45,162 nucleotides of DNA, from the NCBI RefSeq assembly GCF_014196205.1, contig NZ_JACIDE010000024.1, forward strand, positions 1 to 45,162. The letters run 5' to 3'. Below the pieces are notes generated by a model. That model saw only the letters and a program-made list of their open reading frames with translations. It did no database searches and was not told where the DNA came from. Origin of the DNA: Anoxybacteroides voinovskiense. Lineage in GTDB: Bacteria > Bacillota > Bacilli > Bacillales > Anoxybacillaceae. Position numbers and translations under genes: made by a program. This document shows, one piece after another, positions 1,713 through 21,632 of this stretch. Positions within the stretch are counted from its first letter, which is position 1. The number at the start of each line of letters is the position of its first letter.

Positions 1713-1736
1713 CCCTCCATCCTGCATAGATTTTTC
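1692..1736 (+). terminator. Rho-independent terminator of the EAL gene
   Basis: A perfect 10-bp inverted repeat (AGGATGGAGG at 1692-1701, CCTCCATCCT at 1714-1723) spans the EAL stop codon and is followed after seven bases by TTTTT. It lies between two convergent genes. Confidence 0.65.
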
Positions 1737-2956
1737 TAATATTGGCTCGCGAGCGTTTCGCTAAGGGTAATTTCCATCGGTTTTCGCTTACGGAACGAAA
1801 TCCAGCCGGCCTGATGAAGTTCATCTAACGCTTTTCGCACAAGATATTCCGTTTTCCCGGTCAAGGAGAGAAGTTCTTTTTTCGTCAGCCCTTTTCCGGC
1901 GATGCCGAAAATATCGCTTTGTCCTAAGAAGAATACGATGTTTTTTTTCGTTTCGTCTTCCATCTTCAGTTTTTCCATTAACGCATATAATTTCGTCATT
2001 TTTTTCTCTTTTTCTGCTAAGTCTTCTAGTACTTCATGTTGTGCTCGGTCGATAATGTGAAAAAACACTTCGCAAAAAAAGGTAAGCTCTCCTCGATTGT
2101 GCGGGTGATTGGCTTCGGAAAAAGCATCATAATACAACTGTTTTCGTTGATTTGTTGCGTACGAGAGTGTGAGCGCCGTTAAAAAATCTAATTCTTGCAT
2201 TAAATACATACTGCTTATATAGCGGGCGGTTCGTCCGTTTCCATCATAAAAAGGATGGATGTAGCCGAAATAATAATGCGAGATAGCAATTTTGTATAAC
2301 ATCGGGGACGGGTGTTCACGGAGGAAGCGAATAAGCTGTTGGAGCTTTGTTTGAATGGCTTTCTCTGGGTACACGCCCCGATGAATGATTTTCCCGGTAG
2401 CGGTGACGACATCAACAGCCTGTTTACGGAACAATTCGCCATCGAGCGCGTCTCCCGGCTTTATTTCCTCGCGAACGAGGCGATCGTAAATGGTTCGAAT
2501 GTCTTTTACCGTCTCGAGTGCGGGGACATCGCCCGACAGCAAGTGAAAATAAGCGTTCATTAAACTAAGGTGACGGACGTTTCGTTTTTTGGCTGTTTCT
2601 TTTCGTACGATAATTTCAATGACCGTTTCCATCTCTCGTCTTGTGCTGCGAATGCCTTCGATTTCGTTTGTGCTTAATAGTTCGTCAATGAGTTTTGTTT
2701 GAATATATTGTTGGATCGCAATCGGTGGAAGGCGGTGCACAATCGTTTGAATTTGCTTGCTCTGTTTCGTCAGTTGTTCGTGCAATACGTCTAGTTGTTG
2801 ATGGTTGACGTAAAAGCATGAAAATTCGTCATTGCTTTTATAAGGTTTAATCGAAAGCGGCAAATGAACCGTCCCGTAGCTGTTTACACGTTTTTCCCAT
2901 TCAGCAAAGTAGCGCTCCGGTGCTTTATAATATAATTTAGAAAGCAGTTCATACAT
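1736..2956 (-). CDS. Fic family protein (probable AMP transferase) with C-terminal winged helix
   Basis: A protein of about 406 residues. The Fic core motif HPFYDGNGRTAR is intact, including the catalytic His and the GNGR phosphate-binding loop, so transfer of AMP (or another nucleotide moiety) to a target hydroxyl is expected. About 100 residues in, TNEIEG fits the inhibitory [S/T]xxxE[G/N] motif that blocks the ATP site in N-terminally autoinhibited (class II) Fic proteins. The last 60 residues (LTKKELLSLTGKTEYLVRKAL) look like a winged helix. GGGAGG lies only two bases before the first ATG (2962) but eight before the second, so 2956 is preferred. No antitoxin gene is adjacent, as expected for a self-inhibited Fic. 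Confidence 0.92.
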   Translation of the reverse strand: MYELLSKLYYKAPERYFAEWEKRVNSYGTVHLPLSIKPYKSNDEFSCFYVNHQQLDVLHEQLTKQSKQIQTIVHRLPPIAIQQYIQTKLIDELLSTNEIEGIRSTRREMETVIEIIVRKETAKKRNVRHLSLMNAYFHLLSGDVPALETVKDIRTIYDRLVREEIKPGDALDGELFRKQAVDVVTATGKIIHRGVYPEKAIQTKLQQLIRFLREHPSPMLYKIAISHYYFGYIHPFYDGNGRTARYISSMYLMQELDFLTALTLSYATNQRKQLYYDAFSEANHPHNRGELTFFCEVFFHIIDRAQHEVLEDLAEKEKKMTKLYALMEKLKMEDETKKNIVFFLGQSDIFGIAGKGLTKKELLSLTGKTEYLVRKALDELHQAGWISFRKRKPMEITLSETLASQY

Positions 2957-3101
2957 ATACATTCCCTCCCCCTTTCATAATGATTCCCGTTTATCTCTTA
3001 TAATATAATTAAAAAATAGCGATATTTTTTTATTTATGCAAGAATGTTAAAATAATATAATGAAAAATGCACCGTTTTTTAAAAATATAGGGGGAGAGTA
3101 T

Positions 3102-3353: not shown

Positions 3354-3506
3354 GCATGTCAAATTTTTTTCGAAAAAACGCCACCTAATCGTCACGAACT
3401 TTAAGCAAGGAAAGCGAATGCATTTTTTACAATGAAGGTTGTGACCGATGTAACAGAAGGACAATGGGTGTTTTGCGTATGATGAGAAAAAAGGAGAGTA
3501 AGCAAC

Positions 3507-4823
3507 ATGAATTGGGTTCCATCGCGATTTAATGCAATCGCAGAAACGGAAGAAGGGGAACTAGTCGTTTACAATAGCTATACTGGCGCGATCGGGACGG
3601 TGGCGCTAGAGGAAAAACAAGCGGTGTTAGCAGCGTTAAGAAAAGGAGTTCGTGGGGAATTAGGAGAAGTCGAGCAGACGCTTGTCGATTGCGGGTTTCT
3701 CGTTCCGGAACAGACGGATGAAAAAAGGCGTGCGCAGTTTTTGCATCAAACGCTGCATCGAACGGATACGATGCATGTCATTATTTTGCCGACAGAAGCG
3801 TGCAATTTTCGCTGTACATACTGCTATCAAGATTTTGCACACGGCAAGATGAGCCGAGAAATAGTCGATGGGGTGAAGCAGTTTTTGCATAAAAAAATGC
3901 CGAAGCTGGAACATTTGACGGTCAGCTGGTTTGGCGGCGAGCCGTTATTAGCGCTTGATGTCATCAAAGACATAAGCGGGGAAATCATTGAATGGGCAGT
4001 TGCGTACGGGGTGACGTATCAAGCGGAAATATCGACAAACGGCTATTATTTATCAAAAGAGACGATGCGGACGTTATTAGCATACGGCGTCAACCGGGTA
4101 ATGGTGACGCTTGACGGAACGAAAGAGGTGCACGATACGCGCCGCATATTGGCGACGGGTGGTCCGACATATGAAACGATTTTGCACAACTTGCGAGCTA
4201 TTCAGACGCTTGCCGAGCCGTTTGAGATCTATATTCGCGTCAATTTTGATGAAGATAATCTGGCGCAAATTCCGCCATTTTTAACAGAACTCTCGCATTA
4301 TTTTGCCGGTGATGCTCGCTTTCAGCTGTTTTGCCGCCCGGTCGGAAAATGGGGCGGGAAAAACGACGATCTTTTGCCAATTTGCGACCATCGCACAGCG
4401 GAGCGGAAAATTTGGGAGTTTACCGAGCAAGGGATCAAGCAAGGGCTAGCGATGAGCGCGGTGATTGAATCGATGCTTATGCCGTCTGGGGCAGTGTGCT
4501 ATGCAGCAAAGCCTCATTCGTTTGTCATTGGGGCGAACGGCCGAGTGTATAAATGTACGTGTTTTTTAAACGAAGAGTATAACCATGTCGGCTGGCTGCA
4601 AGCGGACGGCACGATGGCACTTGATTACGACAAGCTAGCGCTATGGGTGACGTCAGGCGAAGAGCAAGATGAAACGTGCCAAGCATGTTTCTTCCGCCCA
4701 GCTTGCCAAGGCAACCATTGTCCGCAATACCGCCTTCGAAAGAAAGAACGTCCATGTCCGTACGAAAAGCGAAAAATTAAGCAAGTATTGCGCACGATCG
4801 CGCAGAAGGAGGTGAACCAATGA
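3507..4823 (+). CDS. Radical SAM/SPASM peptide-maturase-like enzyme
   Basis: A 438-residue cytoplasmic iron-sulfur enzyme. An N-terminal region of about 85 residues (VVYNSYTGAIG) is of a kind common in SPASM-type peptide-modifying enzymes. The radical SAM core follows with CNFRCTYC at Cys99, Cys103 and Cys106 (CxxxCxxC for the SAM-bound 4Fe-4S cluster) and WFGGEP. The C-terminal SPASM region holds many cysteines (CYAAKP, YKCTC, ETCQACFFRPACQGNHC, PCPY) for auxiliary clusters. The start has AAAGGAG eight bases upstream. The stop codon overlaps the ATG of a 28-residue peptide gene (ATGA), followed by a terminator. SPASM enzymes commonly modify ribosomal peptides, so the small peptide is the likely substrate. 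An anaerobic sulfatase-maturase role is unlikely, as no sulfatase is nearby. Confidence 0.9.
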   Translation: MNWVPSRFNAIAETEEGELVVYNSYTGAIGTVALEEKQAVLAALRKGVRGELGEVEQTLVDCGFLVPEQTDEKRRAQFLHQTLHRTDTMHVIILPTEACNFRCTYCYQDFAHGKMSREIVDGVKQFLHKKMPKLEHLTVSWFGGEPLLALDVIKDISGEIIEWAVAYGVTYQAEISTNGYYLSKETMRTLLAYGVNRVMVTLDGTKEVHDTRRILATGGPTYETILHNLRAIQTLAEPFEIYIRVNFDEDNLAQIPPFLTELSHYFAGDARFQLFCRPVGKWGGKNDDLLPICDHRTAERKIWEFTEQGIKQGLAMSAVIESMLMPSGAVCYAAKPHSFVIGANGRVYKCTCFLNEEYNHVGWLQADGTMALDYDKLALWVTSGEEQDETCQACFFRPACQGNHCPQYRLRKKERPCPYEKRKIKQVLRTIAQKEVNQ

Positions 4824-4906
4824 AAATTTTACGTCCGGCAGTATCTCCAGTCGCTGCTTCTAACACAGGCAGACTATCCAAATCTGTCCCAGGGAACTTA
4901 AAATAA
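4820..4906 (+). CDS. Candidate RiPP precursor peptide for the adjacent radical SAM enzyme
   Basis: A 28-residue peptide gene starting inside the radical SAM stop codon (ATGA) with a strong AAGGAGGTG 5-6 bases upstream. The peptide starts MKILRPAV, has a small-residue middle (SPVAASNTG) and a basic C-terminal part ending SVPGNLK. It has no Cys, Trp, Tyr, Phe or His. Thioether formation to Cys and aromatic cross-links are therefore impossible, while epimerisation, C-C or C-N bond formation on Lys/Arg/Asn/Val, or cleavage remain open. A terminator follows eleven bases after the stop. Expression is well supported by the SD and coupling; the function as a modification substrate is inferred from position alone. 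Confidence 0.6.
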   Translation: MKILRPAVSPVAASNTGRLSKSVPGNLK

Positions 4907-4916
4907 GCAACGAAAG

Positions 4917-4944
4917 GAACCAGCAACACGGCTGGTTCTTTTTT
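4917..4944 (+). terminator. Rho-independent terminator of the radical SAM/peptide operon
   Basis: A perfect 8-bp stem (GAACCAGC, GCTGGTTC) with a six-base loop and six Ts. It makes the small peptide gene the last gene of the unit. Confidence 0.9.
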
Positions 4945-5011
4945 CTAGCCTTTTCCGCCATTTTTCTAGTAAAATAAGAAAAAAGTTCCGTTATTTGAAA
5001 GGAGACTATTC

Positions 5012-5974
5012 ATGAACCACACACCGCTTTTTCTTACTCCGGTGTTTCAAGAACGGATTTGGGGAGGGATCCGTCTTGCGGAGCAGTTTGGTTACCGCAT
5101 TCCGTCAGAGCGGACGGGGGAATGTTGGGCGATTTCGGCGCATCCGAACGGGCCGACGATGGTCAAAAACGGCCCGTTTCAAGGGAAGACGTTAAGTGAA
5201 CTATGGGGGGAACATCCCGAGTTATTCGGCCATTTTCCGTCTGACCGCTTTCCGCTATTGACGAAAATTTTAGATGCGAACGCGGACTTATCAGTGCAAG
5301 TGCACCCGGACGATAATTATGCGCGTACATACGAAAACGGCGAATTAGGGAAAACGGAATGTTGGTACATTATTGACTGTAAAGAAGGCGCTGAACTTGT
5401 CTATGGGCATCAGGCGAAAACAAAAGAAGAGTTGCGGGAAATGATGGAAGAAGGGCGATGGAGCGATTTGCTTCGCAAAGTGCCGATTCGCCCAGGGGAT
5501 TTCTTTTACGTACCAAGCGGAACGGTGCATGCCCTTTGCGAGGGGACGCTTGTTTTGGAAACGCAGCAAAGCTCGGATACGACGTATCGCATCTATGACT
5601 ACGATCGCACCGATGAACATGGCAAAAAACGCGAACTGCATCTTGCGAAAGCGCTTGATGTCATTACCGTCCCGCATGTAGACGTCCAATGCGAGCGCCA
5701 AGTAACAAAAACAGACGGGGCAGAAATTACGACATTTATTGACAACGAATATTTTCTCGTGCAAAAGTGGGATATTACAAACGAATGGGCAGTAGAACAC
5801 ACGACAAGCTTTTTATTAGCGAGCGTTCTTGCTGGAGAAGGCGAGCTTTCGACAGCGGCTGAAACGTATCGGTTAAAAAAAGGCGACCATTTTCTCCTTC
5901 CGTATTCGTTTGCGCCGTTTACGATAAAAGGGAATCTGCAGCTCATCGTTTCCGCGCCTGCTTGGCCGGTATAA
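5012..5974 (+). CDS. manA: Mannose-6-phosphate isomerase, class I
   Basis: A 320-residue zinc enzyme interconverting mannose-6-phosphate and fructose-6-phosphate in the cytoplasm. The cupin metal site is visible: QVHPDD at about residue 97, KTECW, and the VPSGTVHAL His. RIWGG near the N-terminus and the length match the short Bacillus-type ManA. The start has GAAAGGAG nine bases upstream. It stands alone, with a terminator before it and no mannose transporter beside it. The role may be in making mannose-derived surface sugars or in mannose use; the sequence does not decide. Confidence 0.95.
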   Translation: MNHTPLFLTPVFQERIWGGIRLAEQFGYRIPSERTGECWAISAHPNGPTMVKNGPFQGKTLSELWGEHPELFGHFPSDRFPLLTKILDANADLSVQVHPDDNYARTYENGELGKTECWYIIDCKEGAELVYGHQAKTKEELREMMEEGRWSDLLRKVPIRPGDFFYVPSGTVHALCEGTLVLETQQSSDTTYRIYDYDRTDEHGKKRELHLAKALDVITVPHVDVQCERQVTKTDGAEITTFIDNEYFLVQKWDITNEWAVEHTTSFLLASVLAGEGELSTAAETYRLKKGDHFLLPYSFAPFTIKGNLQLIVSAPAWPV

Positions 5975-6013
5975 TAAATATTGCCGCCCATTTGTTTTTT
6001 TCGACCGTAAGTA

Positions 6014-6130
6014 TTATTTTTTTGCGCTCTCTTTTACCGCGCGGACGATTTTGAAGCCGCAGCCGCATAGAAGGGAATGTTTTAAGCGGCGGGCGGGCTG
6101 TTCGCATTGTGGGCAAATAACTGGTGCCAT
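6014..6130 (-). CDS. Small zinc-ribbon protein, 38 residues
   Basis: A tiny gene too short for usual cut-offs. The peptide has CPQC near the N-terminus and CGC about twelve residues later (four cysteines), a layout typical of a minimal zinc ribbon, followed by a basic amphipathic tail ending in AKK. A perfect AAAGGAGG lies seven bases before the ATG, which strongly supports translation. It is transcribed away from VanZ with an AT-rich divergent intergenic region of about 100 bases. A nucleic-acid or protein-binding role is typical of such ribbons, but the function is unknown. Confidence 0.7.
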   Translation of the reverse strand: MAPVICPQCEQPARRLKHSLLCGCGFKIVRAVKESAKK

Positions 6131-6231
6131 TAAGGTACCTCCTTTTGCAATGAATATGTTAAAATCATTATATACGATTTATTTTTAAAATCAATATCAT
6201 TTTATAATTATTTTAATTTTAGGAGTTCGAT

Positions 6232-6675
6232 ATGAGTCAACGCATGCGATGGGTTCTTGTGCTTGGATGGTGTATAGTGATTTATTGCTTTAGTGAGTTT
6301 TCGGTCTTTACCGGAGCGAATACGGAACGACTTTTGCGCCATCTATTGGCGTATTGGCCATTTGGGTCGCAAGGGGATGGCGGTGCTTCTCCGCTTAATT
6401 TTCTCGTTAGGAAATCGGCGCATTTATCCGCGTTTGGCATTTTAGCCGTTCTTGTGTTTCAAGCCCTCCTTCCACGGCGATGGGCGTATATTGGTGCGTG
6501 GGTTTTTGCGGCCGTTTATGCGGCAACGGATGAATGGCATCAGTCGTTTGAGCCGGGGCGGACGGCTGCGGTGACGGACGTGGCAATCGATGCGTGCGGG
6601 GCGCTTATCGCGCTATGTATTGTCTTTAGTGTGCGGCGCGTTCAACGCTTCAAGCGAAACGAATATTCCGCTTAA
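6232..6675 (+). CDS. VanZ family membrane protein
   Basis: A 147-residue integral membrane protein with about four membrane helices. The VanZ-family signature is clear: RKSAHLSAFG in the first half, then YAATDEWHQSFEPGR and VTDVAIDACGA. VanZ homologues are linked to low-level teicoplanin resistance, but most chromosomal ones have no known function. AGGAG lies about six bases upstream of the ATG. It is a single gene, closed by a hairpin shared with the convergent oxidoreductase operon. Confidence 0.9.
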   Translation: MSQRMRWVLVLGWCIVIYCFSEFSVFTGANTERLLRHLLAYWPFGSQGDGGASPLNFLVRKSAHLSAFGILAVLVFQALLPRRWAYIGAWVFAAVYAATDEWHQSFEPGRTAAVTDVAIDACGALIALCIVFSVRRVQRFKRNEYSA

Positions 6676-6676
6676 C

Positions 6677-6712
6677 AAAAAAGAGGGGGGCGAAAACGAA
6701 TCCCCTCTTTTA
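6677..6712. terminator. Bidirectional terminator
   Basis: AAAAGAGGGG (within 6677-6688) pairs with CCCCTCTTTT (6702-6711). A rich and T rich flanks make it work in both directions, for VanZ (+) and for the Gfo/Idh/MocA operon (-). It touches the end of the latter gene. Confidence 0.8.
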
Positions 6713-7693
6713 TTTATCCGCCGGAAAGACGATGCCGGTTTGTTTGCGCGCTTCTTCCATAATTTCGGCGACGATGAGCGAATGGGCGTGCGAATTGATA
6801 GTAGATTCTTTTTTCCCGCTTTGAATGACGTCTGCCCATTCTTTTGCTTCATAATACATTGGATGCTGCTCTTGCGGGACGGTAATGTCTTCTGTCCGGC
6901 CGTCGCGGTAGCGAATTTCGACTTTCGTCGGCGTATGAATCGCATCGATCAGGATGCTTCCTTCTTCCCCTTGAATTTCTGCTGGGACGTACGAATTGGC
7001 AATTTTTGAGTACATGACGACCGCATCCATCTCTCCGTAATCTAGGACGATGCTTCCTTCACCATCGACGCCAGAAGAAAGCATGACGCTATTTGCTTTG
7101 AGCGACTGCGGCTTGCCAAATAAGACGACGAGCGGATATAGGCAATAAATGCCGAGATCCATTAAAGCGCCGTTGGAAAACGCCGGATTAAAGGCGTTTA
7201 ATACAATCCCTTCTTTGTACGCATCATAGCGCGACGAATATTGGCAATAGCTTGCGAAATAGCGGCGGATGTTGCCGATTTTCGGCAAGTGCTCGCGAAT
7301 CGCTTGAAAGTTTGGCAGAAGCGTCGTTTTGAGCGCCTCCATCAATACGACCCCGTTTTGCCGTGCGGCTTCGACCATGGCGCGCCCTTCTTTTGTGTTC
7401 GAGGCAAACGGTTTTTCGCATAAGACGTGCTTGCCGTGTTGTAAAAGAAAAATCGCCTGTTCGGCATGCAGCGCATTTGGGCTCGCGATATACACGGCAT
7501 CTACCTCTTTACTAGCCGCCAGTTCTTCTAAACTTGTAAAAATGGCTGGCGCCCCTGTTTTTTCGGCAAAGTCTTTTGCGGTTTCTTCCGTCCGTGAATA
7601 GACTGCAGATAGCACAAGCTCCGGAACATTGCTTGCGGCGCGAATAAACTCTTGCGTAATCCAATTCGTGCCGATTGTCGCGAATTTAATCAT
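6710..7693 (-). CDS. Gfo/Idh/MocA family oxidoreductase
   Basis: A 327-residue NAD(P)-dependent sugar or cyclitol dehydrogenase-like protein. The Rossmann N-terminus starts KFATIGTNWIT, and the family motif CEKPFASNT (catalytic-region Lys-Pro) lies near residue 95. The C-terminal alpha/beta domain carries the family's YCLYP helix region. Its ATG shares a base with the stop of the upstream VOC gene (TGATG), so the two are translationally coupled. It is the last gene of the leftward unit from 9660. The substrate cannot be told from sequence. Confidence 0.92.
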   Translation of the reverse strand: MIKFATIGTNWITQEFIRAASNVPELVLSAVYSRTEETAKDFAEKTGAPAIFTSLEELAASKEVDAVYIASPNALHAEQAIFLLQHGKHVLCEKPFASNTKEGRAMVEAARQNGVVLMEALKTTLLPNFQAIREHLPKIGNIRRYFASYCQYSSRYDAYKEGIVLNAFNPAFSNGALMDLGIYCLYPLVVLFGKPQSLKANSVMLSSGVDGEGSIVLDYGEMDAVVMYSKIANSYVPAEIQGEEGSILIDAIHTPTKVEIRYRDGRTEDITVPQEQHPMYYEAKEWADVIQSGKKESTINSHAHSLIVAEIMEEARKQTGIVFPADK

Positions 7694-8088
7694 CAGTATT
7701 CACTCCTTGTTTCGTATAATTCAAGTGGCAAGTCGTCTGGGTCGCGGAAAAACGTAAACCGTTTTCCGGTAATCGGGTCGATGCGAATCGGCTCCACCGC
7801 AACGCCGTGTGTTTGTAAATGGGCAACTACCTCGTCGATGTTGGCGACCGCAAAGGCAACATGCCGCAGTCCGCATGCTTCCGGCTCACTCGGTCGCTTC
7901 GGCGGGTGTTCAAACGAAAATAGCTCTATTTGTACATCGCCTGCGCGTAAATCTAATTTATATGATTTGCGCTCTGCACGATACTGTTCGTGCAACACGC
8001 GAAAGCCGAGGACGTTTGTGTAAAAATGCTTGGACTGCTCATAATCGGAACAAATAATGGCGATATGGTGAATCGTCGTAACGTTCAT
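7693..8088 (-). CDS. VOC family (glyoxalase-like) metalloprotein
   Basis: A 131-residue one-domain protein with two beta-alpha-beta-beta-beta modules. Likely metal ligands are His in IHHIAIICSD at the N-terminus, Glu in VQIELFSFE, His in LRHVAFAV and Glu in LPLELYE. It resembles the YaeR-like branch of the glyoxalase/bleomycin-resistance superfamily, whose members remain mostly without known substrate. Its ATG overlaps the stop of the frameshifted end of the NYN gene (ATGA), showing tight operon packing, and its own stop overlaps the oxidoreductase start. Confidence 0.9.
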   Translation of the reverse strand: MNVTTIHHIAIICSDYEQSKHFYTNVLGFRVLHEQYRAERKSYKLDLRAGDVQIELFSFEHPPKRPSEPEACGLRHVAFAVANIDEVVAHLQTHGVAVEPIRIDPITGKRFTFFRDPDDLPLELYETRSEY

Positions 8089-8297
8089 CTATCTTCTCCT
8101 TTTAAGACGGCTTGTACAAAGCGGTGTTCCCGTTGCAGTCGACAGGCGGTTGTCGGATAATCGGGCGCTTCCGGATTAGGGACGGAGTATGTATCGATGC
8201 AACCGCAGTCGAGCACATCTGTCAACGCATCACTAATTTCTGCCGCCGGATATTTTTCGACAAGTCGTTTGCGAAACAAATTGAGTCCGATAAATTC
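8085..8297 (-). pseudogene. Displaced C-terminal part of the NYN protein
   Basis: This frame has no ribosome site of its own; the only possible early start is a TTG at 8279. It reads on from the NYN frame if one base is dropped in the A8 run (T8 on the plus strand, 8298-8305). It encodes a plausible domain end (LFRKRLVEKYPAAEISDAL, then Cys-Gly-Cys, and CRLQREHRF) and its TGA overlaps the VOC start codon (ATGA), the packing expected for a native gene end. The cause may be a real mutation, a slippage site or a sequencing error. Confidence 0.6.
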
Positions 8298-8892
8298 TTT
8301 TTTTTGTCGTTCGTTCTAAATGGTCTAGCGTTTCAACGACGATTTTTGCCCATGGGTTAAGAAACAATCGCTTCGTTTTTTCTTCCCGCTCACTCATAGT
8401 GATTTTCCGAAGAATCGGATGATGGAACTCCAGCGGATAAAAATAGTCCGCCATCTCAACAATTAATTTGTTCGTATGGCCAGCAAATCCAACAACATGG
8501 ATGGTTTTTCCATTAATTTTTAGACGTCGGATGACGTGGCGCAAATCCCCATCTCCTGAGATAATCAAAAAATGGTTGATATGAGCATATTGGTACATGG
8601 TATCTAAAATGTCTAGCGACAGTTCAATATCGGTCGAACCTTTTAAATATTGAAACGGTGTTTTCGTGACGACATGTTTTGGCTGAATGCCTAAGTTCAT
8701 TAATTTTGTCTGTTTGCCCATCTCGCCTTTATCAAAATCGGCATACGCATAGATGTTCGTCACTTTTCCGTGTGGGCGGGCGAGTTCATGGACAAAGGCG
8801 GCCAGCTGTTTGTAATCAATGGCCGCCCCCGCTTCTTGTTTTGCGGTTTTTTCTAAATTTTCAAGATCAATAAACACGGCAAAAAAGTTCAT
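8233..8892 (-). CDS. NYN domain (PIN-like) protein, C-terminus changed by frameshift
   Basis: The open frame gives 219 residues. The N-terminus FFAVFIDLENLEK has the conserved acidic Asp and Asn of NYN/LabA-type domains. SGDGDLRHVIRRLK carries the second acidic cluster and VGFAGHTNKLIVEMADYF the third element. NYN domains are PIN-like ribonucleases. After residue ~184 (RTTKK) the frame runs through eight As and soon ends (QTTCRKISGGRN), while the sequence that looks like the natural continuation lies in the next frame down to 8085. GAAGGA lies about ten bases before the ATG. Loss of one A would restore a protein of about 268 residues. Confidence 0.8.
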   Translation of the reverse strand: MNFFAVFIDLENLEKTAKQEAGAAIDYKQLAAFVHELARPHGKVTNIYAYADFDKGEMGKQTKLMNLGIQPKHVVTKTPFQYLKGSTDIELSLDILDTMYQYAHINHFLIISGDGDLRHVIRRLKINGKTIHVVGFAGHTNKLIVEMADYFYPLEFHHPILRKITMSEREEKTKRLFLNPWAKIVVETLDHLERTTKKRIYRTQFVSQTTCRKISGGRN

Positions 8893-8916
8893 GCGGCTTC
8901 ATCCTTCGCTGTCTTT

Positions 8917-9660
8917 TTAGAAAAACACAATCGTTTGGAGCTGCTTGTTGACTTCGTCGATGTCGAAATGCTCTGGGTCGTATGCGCCGCCGTACCATTC
9001 CATAAACTCTTCCATTTCTTCTTTTGTTCCGTTTCCTTCGATTAAGTCGGTCACTTCCATGTAGCCGTAAATGCCGCCGACGTCTTCTGGCGGACAGGCA
9101 CGCTTGCCTTTCAAACAAACCGGGTGGCGGAACGGATCGGCCGTCGTTTCAATTTTCTCGAGCGTAACAAGATGCACCCAATTGTCGCCAAAATCATACG
9201 TATAGGTAAACTTTTCGCCTTCCTTTTTTATAAACCTCGACAGCTCTACCGTGCGAGCATCGTATTTTTCCCGCCAGCCGACGAATGAGAAGCCGTACTC
9301 TTCATCCGGAATGTCGATGACGATATCGTTAATTTCAAACTCATATAAATGGTTATTTTCCCAACCCATCGCAATTTGGATGATGTCATGCAGCTGATCG
9401 AACGTAATATGGCTAGGGACGACGATGCGCCGCCACACGGGTGGACGGATGCCTTTTAAAGCGATTTTGAACTGATAAAGCACGGTCGTTTTTTCGCCTT
9501 GCTTTGGCATTGGCTTGTTCCGTTTGGCGATTGCTTGCAGTAAATAGTCGCGATTAATAATAGCATCTAATTGCTGTTTATATATGTCTGGCAATTGTTC
9601 ATATGCGTCTGACCGTTGAATAACATCGACAACCGTTTGTAACAATTCCTCTCTCCGCAA
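8917..9660 (-). CDS. Plasmid pRiA4b ORF-3-like protein
   Basis: A 247-residue protein. The central part matches the pRiA4b ORF-3 family (PF07929): LYQFKIALKGIRPPVWRRI, then LHDIIQIAMGWENNHLYEF, and YTYDFGDNWVHLVTLE, followed by CPPEDVGGIYGY. About 60 N-terminal residues are helical. The biochemical role of the family is unknown. Starts are ambiguous: TTG at 9660 has only GGGGG upstream, and TTG at 9645 has GGAG seven bases upstream. It appears to be the first gene of the leftward unit with the NYN, VOC and oxidoreductase genes. Confidence 0.88.
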   Translation of the reverse strand: MRREELLQTVVDVIQRSDAYEQLPDIYKQQLDAIINRDYLLQAIAKRNKPMPKQGEKTTVLYQFKIALKGIRPPVWRRIVVPSHITFDQLHDIIQIAMGWENNHLYEFEINDIVIDIPDEEYGFSFVGWREKYDARTVELSRFIKKEGEKFTYTYDFGDNWVHLVTLEKIETTADPFRHPVCLKGKRACPPEDVGGIYGYMEVTDLIEGNGTKEEMEEFMEWYGGAYDPEHFDIDEVNKQLQTIVFF

Positions 9661-21212: not shown

Positions 21213-21632
21213 TTCTTTCATCCCGCGCCGTTCGTGGAGCTGGTGTTTAAATTCTTTTAATAGCGCTTCGCCTTGCAACCCTTGTTCAACAAGTCCGGCT
21301 AACACCGTTTCCGCCCAATCCGTTTTGTTGCGGACGATGTGCCCGTCCATTAATACGCTTGCTCGGTCGTTCATTGGGGTAATCGAACGAACGGAAGCGA
21401 TGACGTTGGCAGGATCGTTGTTAATATTGGAAATGACGACTTGCAGGCGAAATTCCGCATGTTCATTTTGCAGTTTGGCGAATAGTGGTTCGTATTGTTT
21501 ATCGATATATGTTTCAATAAGCCAGCGGTTTTTATCGTCTTCTTTATTAATAATGAGCCCATCGATCAGCGGTATGTCTTCTTCTATTTCATCGCGGACG
21601 ACTTGGAGCCCGACAAGCTTGAACGTTTTCAT
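21192..21632 (-). CDS. YwpF-like protein
   Basis: A 146-residue cytoplasmic protein that matches the YwpF family of bacilli: MKTFKLVGLQVV at the start and EEDIPLIDGLIINKEDD. Function unknown. In B. subtilis ywpF also lies next to ssbB (ywpH), and the same pairing is seen here in divergent orientation, which supports the call. The ATG has GAGGTGG about five bases upstream. The 3' end overlaps the sortase gene. Confidence 0.85.
   Translation of the reverse strand: MKTFKLVGLQVVRDEIEEDIPLIDGLIINKEDDKNRWLIETYIDKQYEPLFAKLQNEHAEFRLQVVISNINNDPANVIASVRSITPMNDRASVLMDGHIVRNKTDWAETVLAGLVEQGLQGEALLKEFKHQLHERRGMKESMVNGR

Follow-up and report, generated by a model that had tools for sequence, protein, structure and literature searches.

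What would a radical S-adenosylmethionine (SAM) enzyme do to a short peptide that offers it neither a cysteine nor an aromatic residue? The question is raised by a locus in the window, the whole 45,162-nucleotide stretch of contig NZ_JACIDE010000024.1 from Anoxybacteroides voinovskiense that was analysed here. On its plus strand, a radical SAM/SPASM enzyme gene encoding 438 residues starts with ATG at 3507 and stops with TGA at 4821-4823 (3507-4823), behind the ribosome-binding site AAAGGAG (3490-3496). Its stop codon overlaps, as ATGA, the ATG (4820-4822) of a gene for the 28-residue peptide MKILRPAVSPVAASNTGRLSKSVPGNLK, which contains no Cys, Trp, Tyr, Phe, or His and whose own stop ends at 4906. 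The Shine-Dalgarno sequence of the peptide gene, AGGAGGTG (4807-4814), lies within the last enzyme codons, 5 bases 5' of the ATG, and the intrinsic terminator hairpin GAACCAGC-AACACG-GCTGGTTC with a T run behind it follows (4917-4938). Folding of the terminator stretch gave -19.2 kcal/mol and a z-score of -5.3; a simple consensus terminator scan gives the stem on the minus strand only. The original prediction had described these elements as a two-gene system for a ribosomally synthesised and post-translationally modified peptide (RiPP). We confirmed the elements, and its statement that no transporter or peptidase gene adjoins them holds for the open reading frames of the window and their NCBIfam and Pfam matches. 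Two features go beyond that prediction, the residue Cys293 of the enzyme and an Fnr-type box upstream. The two-gene unit probably makes a chemically modified peptide, and sequence comparison makes it very likely that it is a minimal Fnr-controlled RiPP cassette whose peptide is altered around KSVPG.

The comparison set consisted of 45 distinct full-length enzymes assembled without using the peptide. The broken enzymes of G020, G022, and G501 and a second enzyme copy in G021, each accompanied by a peptide, were left out of it, as were the G027 and G029 sister enzymes and the distant loci. In this set, 38 enzymes are at least 49.3% identical to that of the window and the other 7 at most 42.2%; in the tree, a branch with a support of 90/91 separates the 38 from the rest, and some outgroup branches are very long. 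A peptide gene lies beside 37 of the 38 clade enzymes, with K-S-[VI]-P-G in 36 and K-A-V-P-G in one (G596). For the remaining enzyme (G243), the contig ends 272 bases past the stop. All 7 outgroup enzymes lack a KSVPG-type peptide. The peptide starts between 13 bases before and 349 bases after the end of the enzyme stop codon, and at no more than 100 bases in 34 of 36 cases. Besides the enzyme and a frame at 12 loci, which by eye we took to be the peptide gene read in antisense, every protein cluster is limited to at most 7 of the 45 sequences, and no further neighbour is common across the group. In G021 (L111), two complete cassettes lie approximately 6 kb apart, their peptides ending in SVPGNLK and SVPGHLK.

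The pairing was followed through genomes of increasing taxonomic breadth. The 41 genomes of the family hold 15 intact enzymes (69-100% identity, in 14 genomes), all 15 followed by the peptide, and 42-43% identical enzymes without it occur in the family genomes G017, G025, G027, and G029. The order, sampled with 397 genomes, yielded 12 intact enzymes of at least 52% identity, 11 with the peptide and the twelfth being that of G243 at its contig end. Peptide matches with E below 1e-4 were obtained in 13 order genomes, 11 of them beside an intact enzyme, one beside enzyme fragments (G022), and one without the enzyme (G029). Partial matches in G242, G249, G278, and G312 (E 0.0016-0.0045) were taken as chance, and no such enzyme lies at the loci in G242 and G278. 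The 398 genomes of the class gave 12 peptide matches, 10 of them new and all 10 with the enzyme upstream, apparently frameshifted in one (G501), and 299 genomes drawn evenly from the phylum gave a peptide match only in that of the window. In a species-level contig collection with 42 loci, the peptide is present at 12 of the 12 loci with 53-96% identity and absent from three Paenibacillus loci (42-43%) and three loci at 25-28%, a count that leaves out the 24 loci from L027 on (36% identity or less). The cassette is found in Anoxybacillus, Parageobacillus, Thermolongibacillus, Neobacillus, Robertmurraya, Evansella, Ammoniphilus, and further genera of the class. Viral contigs gave just two partial matches at 29%, phage records no DNA match, and plasmids 129 matching records, none reaching 60%. 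The best plasmid matches are Deinococcus enzymes (39-40%) whose neighbour carries the annotation LLM-class oxidoreductase or alkane monooxygenase; when parts of two Deinococcus loci were searched for small frames with a filter, the one frame that came up has 82 residues and is unlike the peptide.

The enzyme-peptide pairing recurs far beyond chance, and its conservation supports the predicted two-gene layout. The proposed check, that a short peptide with an SVPGNLK-like end should always follow the enzyme, was passed in all 15 family cases and in 11 of the 12 order cases. Homologous enzymes without this peptide, which the original prediction had named as evidence to the contrary, appear only at 43% identity or less, and four of the 42% loci have another, Cys-ended peptide.

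No NCBIfam or Pfam family matched the peptide at E 0.1. Purifying selection on its codons is shown by 32 distinct 28-codon genes, a set that includes three genes beside broken enzymes and leaves out those of 27 and 29 codons. The proportions of nonsynonymous (pN) and synonymous (pS) differences are 0.24 and 0.67 overall (pN/pS 0.36), and 0.06 and 0.76 in the last eight codons (21-28), where the protein is nearly frozen. In 31 distinct peptides, K21, P24, and G25 are invariant, S22 occurs in 30 (Ala in G596), and residue 23 is Val in 29, Ile in one, and Met in one, giving the core consensus K-[S/A]-[V/I]-P-G. Ser22 is not essential, given the Ala of G596. The claim that the peptide is free of Cys and aromatic residues is right for the window and, as to Cys and Trp, for all 31 peptides, but it does not extend to all relatives: His occurs in some of their peptides and Phe in two, and one of the two Phe-containing peptides has an intact enzyme next to it. 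Within residues 21-28, the aromatics are Phe27 in one peptide and His26 in two, and a single Glu is the only acidic residue in the 31. The Met23 peptide, which also has Leu at P10, belongs to G020 with its truncated enzyme (L110, about 7888-8570). These two changes perhaps reflect decay after enzyme loss, although the peptides beside the broken G022 and G501 enzymes and the lone G029 peptide are intact at the core positions.

The enzyme passes the Pfam Radical_SAM model (62.5 bits, cut-off 29.5), and none of the best 25 of its 77 matched NCBIfam families reaches its cut-off, the best match being TIGR04463 with 225.9 bits against a cut-off of 525. The radical SAM motif CNFRCTYC occupies residues 99-106; C99, C103, and C106 and the seven SPASM cysteines (331, 350, 391, 394, 400, 405, and 417) are invariant in all 38 clade and all 7 outgroup enzymes. 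An AlphaFold2 model (mean predicted local distance difference test (pLDDT) 81, predicted template modelling score 0.73, last 60 residues at pLDDT 45-63) matches CteB best among solved structures, followed by anSME and TigE. At the N-terminus, where a leader-binding domain (RRE) might be expected, the model shows four strands and two helices ahead of residue 62, and Pfam gives no PqqD-type match. Cys293, in the loop past strand 272-278 and ahead of helix 295-311 of the model, is present in 38 of the 38 clade enzymes, and the aligned residues are F, F, V, V, V, T, and C in the seven outgroup enzymes and, as read by eye, Leu in CteB and Lys in anSMEcpe. The five outgroup enzymes at 42% identity lack Cys293, and their cassettes, where read, hold a Cys-ended peptide. 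According to the parts of PMC8326336 available to us, one auxiliary cluster of CteB has an open site toward the substrate. The absence of Cys293 from enzymes with Cys-ended peptides leads to one reading, that Cys293 fills the cluster site which CteB leaves open. By analogy, it could instead be a hydrogen donor, the role proposed for the critical Cys223 of EpeE (PMC8326336, in part).

Side-by-side reading of the regions upstream of the enzyme genes brought out the motif TGTGA-N6-T[CA]AC. In the window, an Fnr/Crp-type operator, TGTGA-CCGATG-TAACA (3440-3455, plus strand), kept among relatives, precedes the -10 element TATGAT (3478-3483, plus strand), with the box centre approximately 42 bases before the predicted transcription start. 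We scored a box when 8 or more of the 10 half-site letters matched and a -10 with 4 or more of the 6 letters of TATAAT lay 20-23 bases after it. This rule was satisfied by 28 of the 38 clade genes, the window included. Shuffled copies passed in 1.9 of 38 cases on average, other genes at the same loci in 11 of 248 upstream regions, and the outgroup enzyme genes in none of 7. Five class genomes of family f50 have box scores of 7-8 and a poor -10, and two of the five pass. The distance from box to -10 is 21 or 22 bases in all 28 genes and therefore places the box centre near -41.5, the position of class II activators. The Fnr consensus is TGTGA-N6-TCACA (PMC8151001 Table 1, in part), which the window box, with TAACA as its second half-site, matches at 9 of 10 positions.

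The strict pattern TGTGA-N6-TMACW-N19-24-TATRAT has three sites in the host genome and 123 matches over the 41 family genomes, against 0 and 3 for the reversed pattern. The host sites precede the cassette enzyme, a NarK-like gene (289 bits, cut-off 312), and an operon of DUF2249, MobA-like (141 bits, cut-off 164), and TIGR04053 radical SAM genes; the predicted Fnr-type promoters of that operon and the NarK-like gene are at G000:C14:18829-18871 and 21358-21400 (L178). Their contig also carries narG and two Crp/Fnr-type proteins, neither of which reaches an NCBIfam cut-off and both of which end in C-x2-C-x4-C, the spacing of the cluster ligands in Bacillus Fnr (PMC3520743, in part). In Bacillus subtilis, nar is under Fnr control (PMC8139620, in part). 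Of the 14 family genomes with an intact cassette, 13 have narG over its cut-off, compared with 15 of the remaining 27 (one-sided p 0.015, uncorrected for kinship). The cassette genome without narG over the cut-off, G039, is also the only boxless one of the 14 family cassettes scored. The box thus suggests that the cassette is switched on when oxygen runs out, with Fnr as the putative activator. Oxygen control of a radical SAM peptide has a precedent in subtilosin, which is induced anaerobically by ResDE.

In the model that we favour, transcription would start at the class II Fnr promoter, and low oxygen would lead to the oxygen-sensitive enzyme and its substrate being made together. We infer that the peptide is that substrate and that its N-terminus is the recognition part: the SPASM enzyme would bind M-K/R-I/V-L-R-P-A-x-S-P and alter the C-terminal K-S-V-P-G block through a radical reaction for which Cys and aromatic residues are not required. 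Export and trimming would be left to general cell machinery. As to the reaction itself, our first but tentative choice is a change of one residue among residues 22-25, with epimerisation ahead of other changes. Within this choice, the beta-branched Val/Ile at position 23 is the most likely target, and Cys293 would serve either as hydrogen donor or as the fourth ligand to the first auxiliary cluster. Val or Ile at position 23 fits epimerisation or cyclopropane/dehydro chemistry; a Lys cross-link would suit the invariant Lys. With neither immunity nor transport genes next to the cassette, a signal or a cofactor-like product would seem more likely than a bacteriocin.

The cross-link reading holds that Lys21 is joined to an aliphatic residue or to the backbone, in a C-C, C-N, or similar macrocycle with the P-G turn closing the ring. 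It would explain why K21, P24, and G25 are the only core residues invariant in all 31 peptides, but no invariant second partner exists besides P and G, and the Lys cross-links of streptide and darobactin, in the descriptions available in part, use Trp, which the clade peptides lack; we regard it as rather doubtful. A conversion of Val/Ile23 to a cyclopropylglycine-like or dehydro residue, with loss of 2 Da, is unlikely by a further step, and its share overlaps that of the one-residue change. Such a reaction on Val is known from TvgB, which came out of a survey of SPASM subfamily IPR023867 and turns Val into cyclopropylglycine (PMC9062424, in part). TigE (structure 8vpo) has one of the nearest folds, and residue 23 is Val or Ile in all peptides of the set but the one beside the truncated G020 enzyme. 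However, TvgA has a repeating TVGG motif (PMC9062424, in part) and the window peptide a single site without repeat, and a TvgB-like reaction leaves Cys293 without a role. Least probable of the readings weighed is oxidation of Ser22 to formylglycine, as performed by anaerobic sulfatase maturases in S-x-P-x-R-like motifs. S-V-P-G resembles the sulfatase motif, and anSME structures are close matches by sequence and fold. The core tolerates Ala22, beside a full-length enzyme in G596, and Ser oxidation is therefore unlikely; moreover, the residue after Cys350 (351) is Thr or Ser in all 38 clade enzymes, whereas anSMEcpe has an Asp after the aligned Cys. The Asp after this auxiliary-cluster Cys is catalytic in anSMEcpe. 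Against the sulfatase maturase model, the enzyme scores 84 bits with a cut-off of 349.

Two alternatives concern function and control. The small frame might be a regulator or leader peptide of the operon while the enzyme acts on something else, and G022, G029, and G501 do keep it with a broken or absent enzyme. This is quite improbable: a leader would be upstream, whereas the frame sits after the enzyme and, in the window, ahead of a terminator, and it accompanies this type of enzyme and shows selection at the protein level. It is also unlikely, though less so, that the box belongs to CcpA, Rex, or a different Crp-like protein and not to Fnr. The window box has one mismatch to the cre site of CcpA, and the host has five Crp-type proteins over the Pfam cut-off. 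However, a box near -41.5 is placed as for a class II activator, and the other two strict host matches share a contig with narG and the two Cys-tailed Crp/Fnr proteins. The Rex site TTGTGAAW4TTCACAA shares the half-sites of the box (PMC2883068, in part), but in several relatives the box has neither the A/T flanks of Rex nor the CG of cre.

Several observations weigh against the Fnr-controlled cassette and its one-residue chemistry. The full SPASM set points to an oxidative reaction as readily as to a redox-neutral epimerisation. Two intact peptide genes lie beside enzyme fragments in G022, an intact peptide gene lies beside the apparently frameshifted enzyme of G501, and an intact KSVPG peptide gene in G029 (L129, G029:C49, 9011-9094, minus strand) has no such enzyme nearby, the only enzyme match of that genome being a 42% sister enzyme on a different contig. 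The enzyme model is poor in its C-terminal SPASM part (pLDDT 45-63 past residue 380), a model of the peptide in the enzyme gave the peptide a pLDDT of 22-28, and a Cys at position 293 also occurs in one outgroup enzyme, that of G043. On the promoter side, 10 of the 38 clade genes have no box at a threshold that was set after the motif had been seen, the box and narG counts take genomes without kinship correction, and the host NarK, MobA, and Fnr matches are all under NCBIfam cut-offs. A simple sigma-70 scan gives no plus-strand promoter ahead of the enzyme, which may be expected of an activator-dependent promoter.

The enzymes nearest outside the clade belong to a sister cassette composed of a flavoprotein, a Cys-ended peptide, a 42%-identical SPASM enzyme, and a major facilitator superfamily (MFS) transporter. 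It is present in G017 and G025 (L102:5753-9134 and L103:5688-9069) and in Paenibacillus (L020:5110-8584 and L021:5144-8587). Small frames read at these four loci give peptides of 37-42 residues with the ends NCGGC, NCNNC, or NCNGC. The flavoprotein belongs to family PF02441, and its CypD match reaches 26 of 215 bits; the chemistry is perhaps Cys decarboxylation with radical cross-linking. Compared with the window, the sister cassette has another peptide, an extra enzyme, and a transporter, and it lacks both a box at threshold and Cys293. The different peptide of the sister loci indicates that the wider enzyme family serves different peptides, of which the Cys-free one marks a distinct branch. 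A 37%-identical enzyme on the minus strand of G043 (L130, about 3640-9080) has a 42-residue Glu/Thr-rich frame ahead of it, ending in NIACFA, and an M16-like peptidase (as judged by eye) and an MFS-like protein behind it; this is possibly another RiPP system.

The cassette in the window has a Fic protein, an 86-residue small protein, and mannose-6-phosphate isomerase as neighbours. The Fic-family protein (1736-2962, minus strand) has a SoFic-like PADLOC match of 119 bits and an NCBIfam score of 56 bits against a cut-off of 550; its cluster occurs in just 4 of the 45 compared sequences, and it is therefore no part of the cassette. For the cassette, the PADLOC matches are confined to viperin-like ones (49 and 39 bits) on the radical SAM core, and an Rfam scan of the window gave no match over gathering scores.

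Many of the known radical SAM peptide systems act through Cys or aromatic side chains. The conserved core of this cassette has neither, yet its eight-residue end is nearly frozen across genera. An enzyme of 438 residues and a substrate of 28 are small enough for direct reconstitution, Cys293 offers a one-residue handle on the mechanism, and the Fnr-type promoter tells when the product should be sought (oxygen limitation, nitrate) and in what physiological setting. Full-text literature searches, none of them by peptide sequence, returned no description of the peptide that we recognised. Kostenko et al. clustered subfamily IPR023867 (PMC9062424, in part), and their clusters may include this enzyme group; Geobacillus, Anoxybacillus, and TIGR04463 do not appear in its main text. 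It is possible, if doubtful, that the cassette represents a new RiPP class of the Bacilli, Fnr-switched and transporter-less, in which a SPASM enzyme with an extra invariant Cys would install an undescribed modification at K-[S/A]-[V/I]-P-G in a peptide lacking Cys and Trp and yield a conserved signal or cofactor for the anaerobic switch.

Known systems resemble the cassette in different parts. The TIGR04463 maturase is similar over residues 8-426 of 438 and in its SPASM layout, but that model is named rSAM_vs_C_rich, while the window peptide has no Cys, and the score of 226 bits is below 525. CteB (PDB 5wgg/5why), which forms thioethers, is the best solved-structure match by sequence and fold; its substrate has Cys, and its auxiliary cluster has the open site (PMC8326336, in part). 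TvgB, like the proposed reaction, acts on an aliphatic Val but on repeated motifs (PMC9062424, in part), and TigE is a near fold match. EpeE (YydG) of Bacillus subtilis targets Val and Ile, has its critical Cys223, and is a fold match at rank 28, but it has two clusters in all (PMC8326336, in part), compared with three expected in the window enzyme. The YydG-family model TIGR04078 has no match in the host genome at E 0.001 and exceeds its cut-off in none of 150 order genomes. Judged by sequence, the cassette is probably a radical SAM RiPP system of known general kind, and it lies outside the thioether RiPPs, with their required Cys, the aromatic cyclophane or streptide-like group, TIGR04463, the sulfatase maturases, and the epipeptide enzymes. 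With radical SAM/SPASM RiPP systems in general it shares the CxxxCxxC core, the SPASM cysteines, and a conserved short precursor encoded beside the enzyme.

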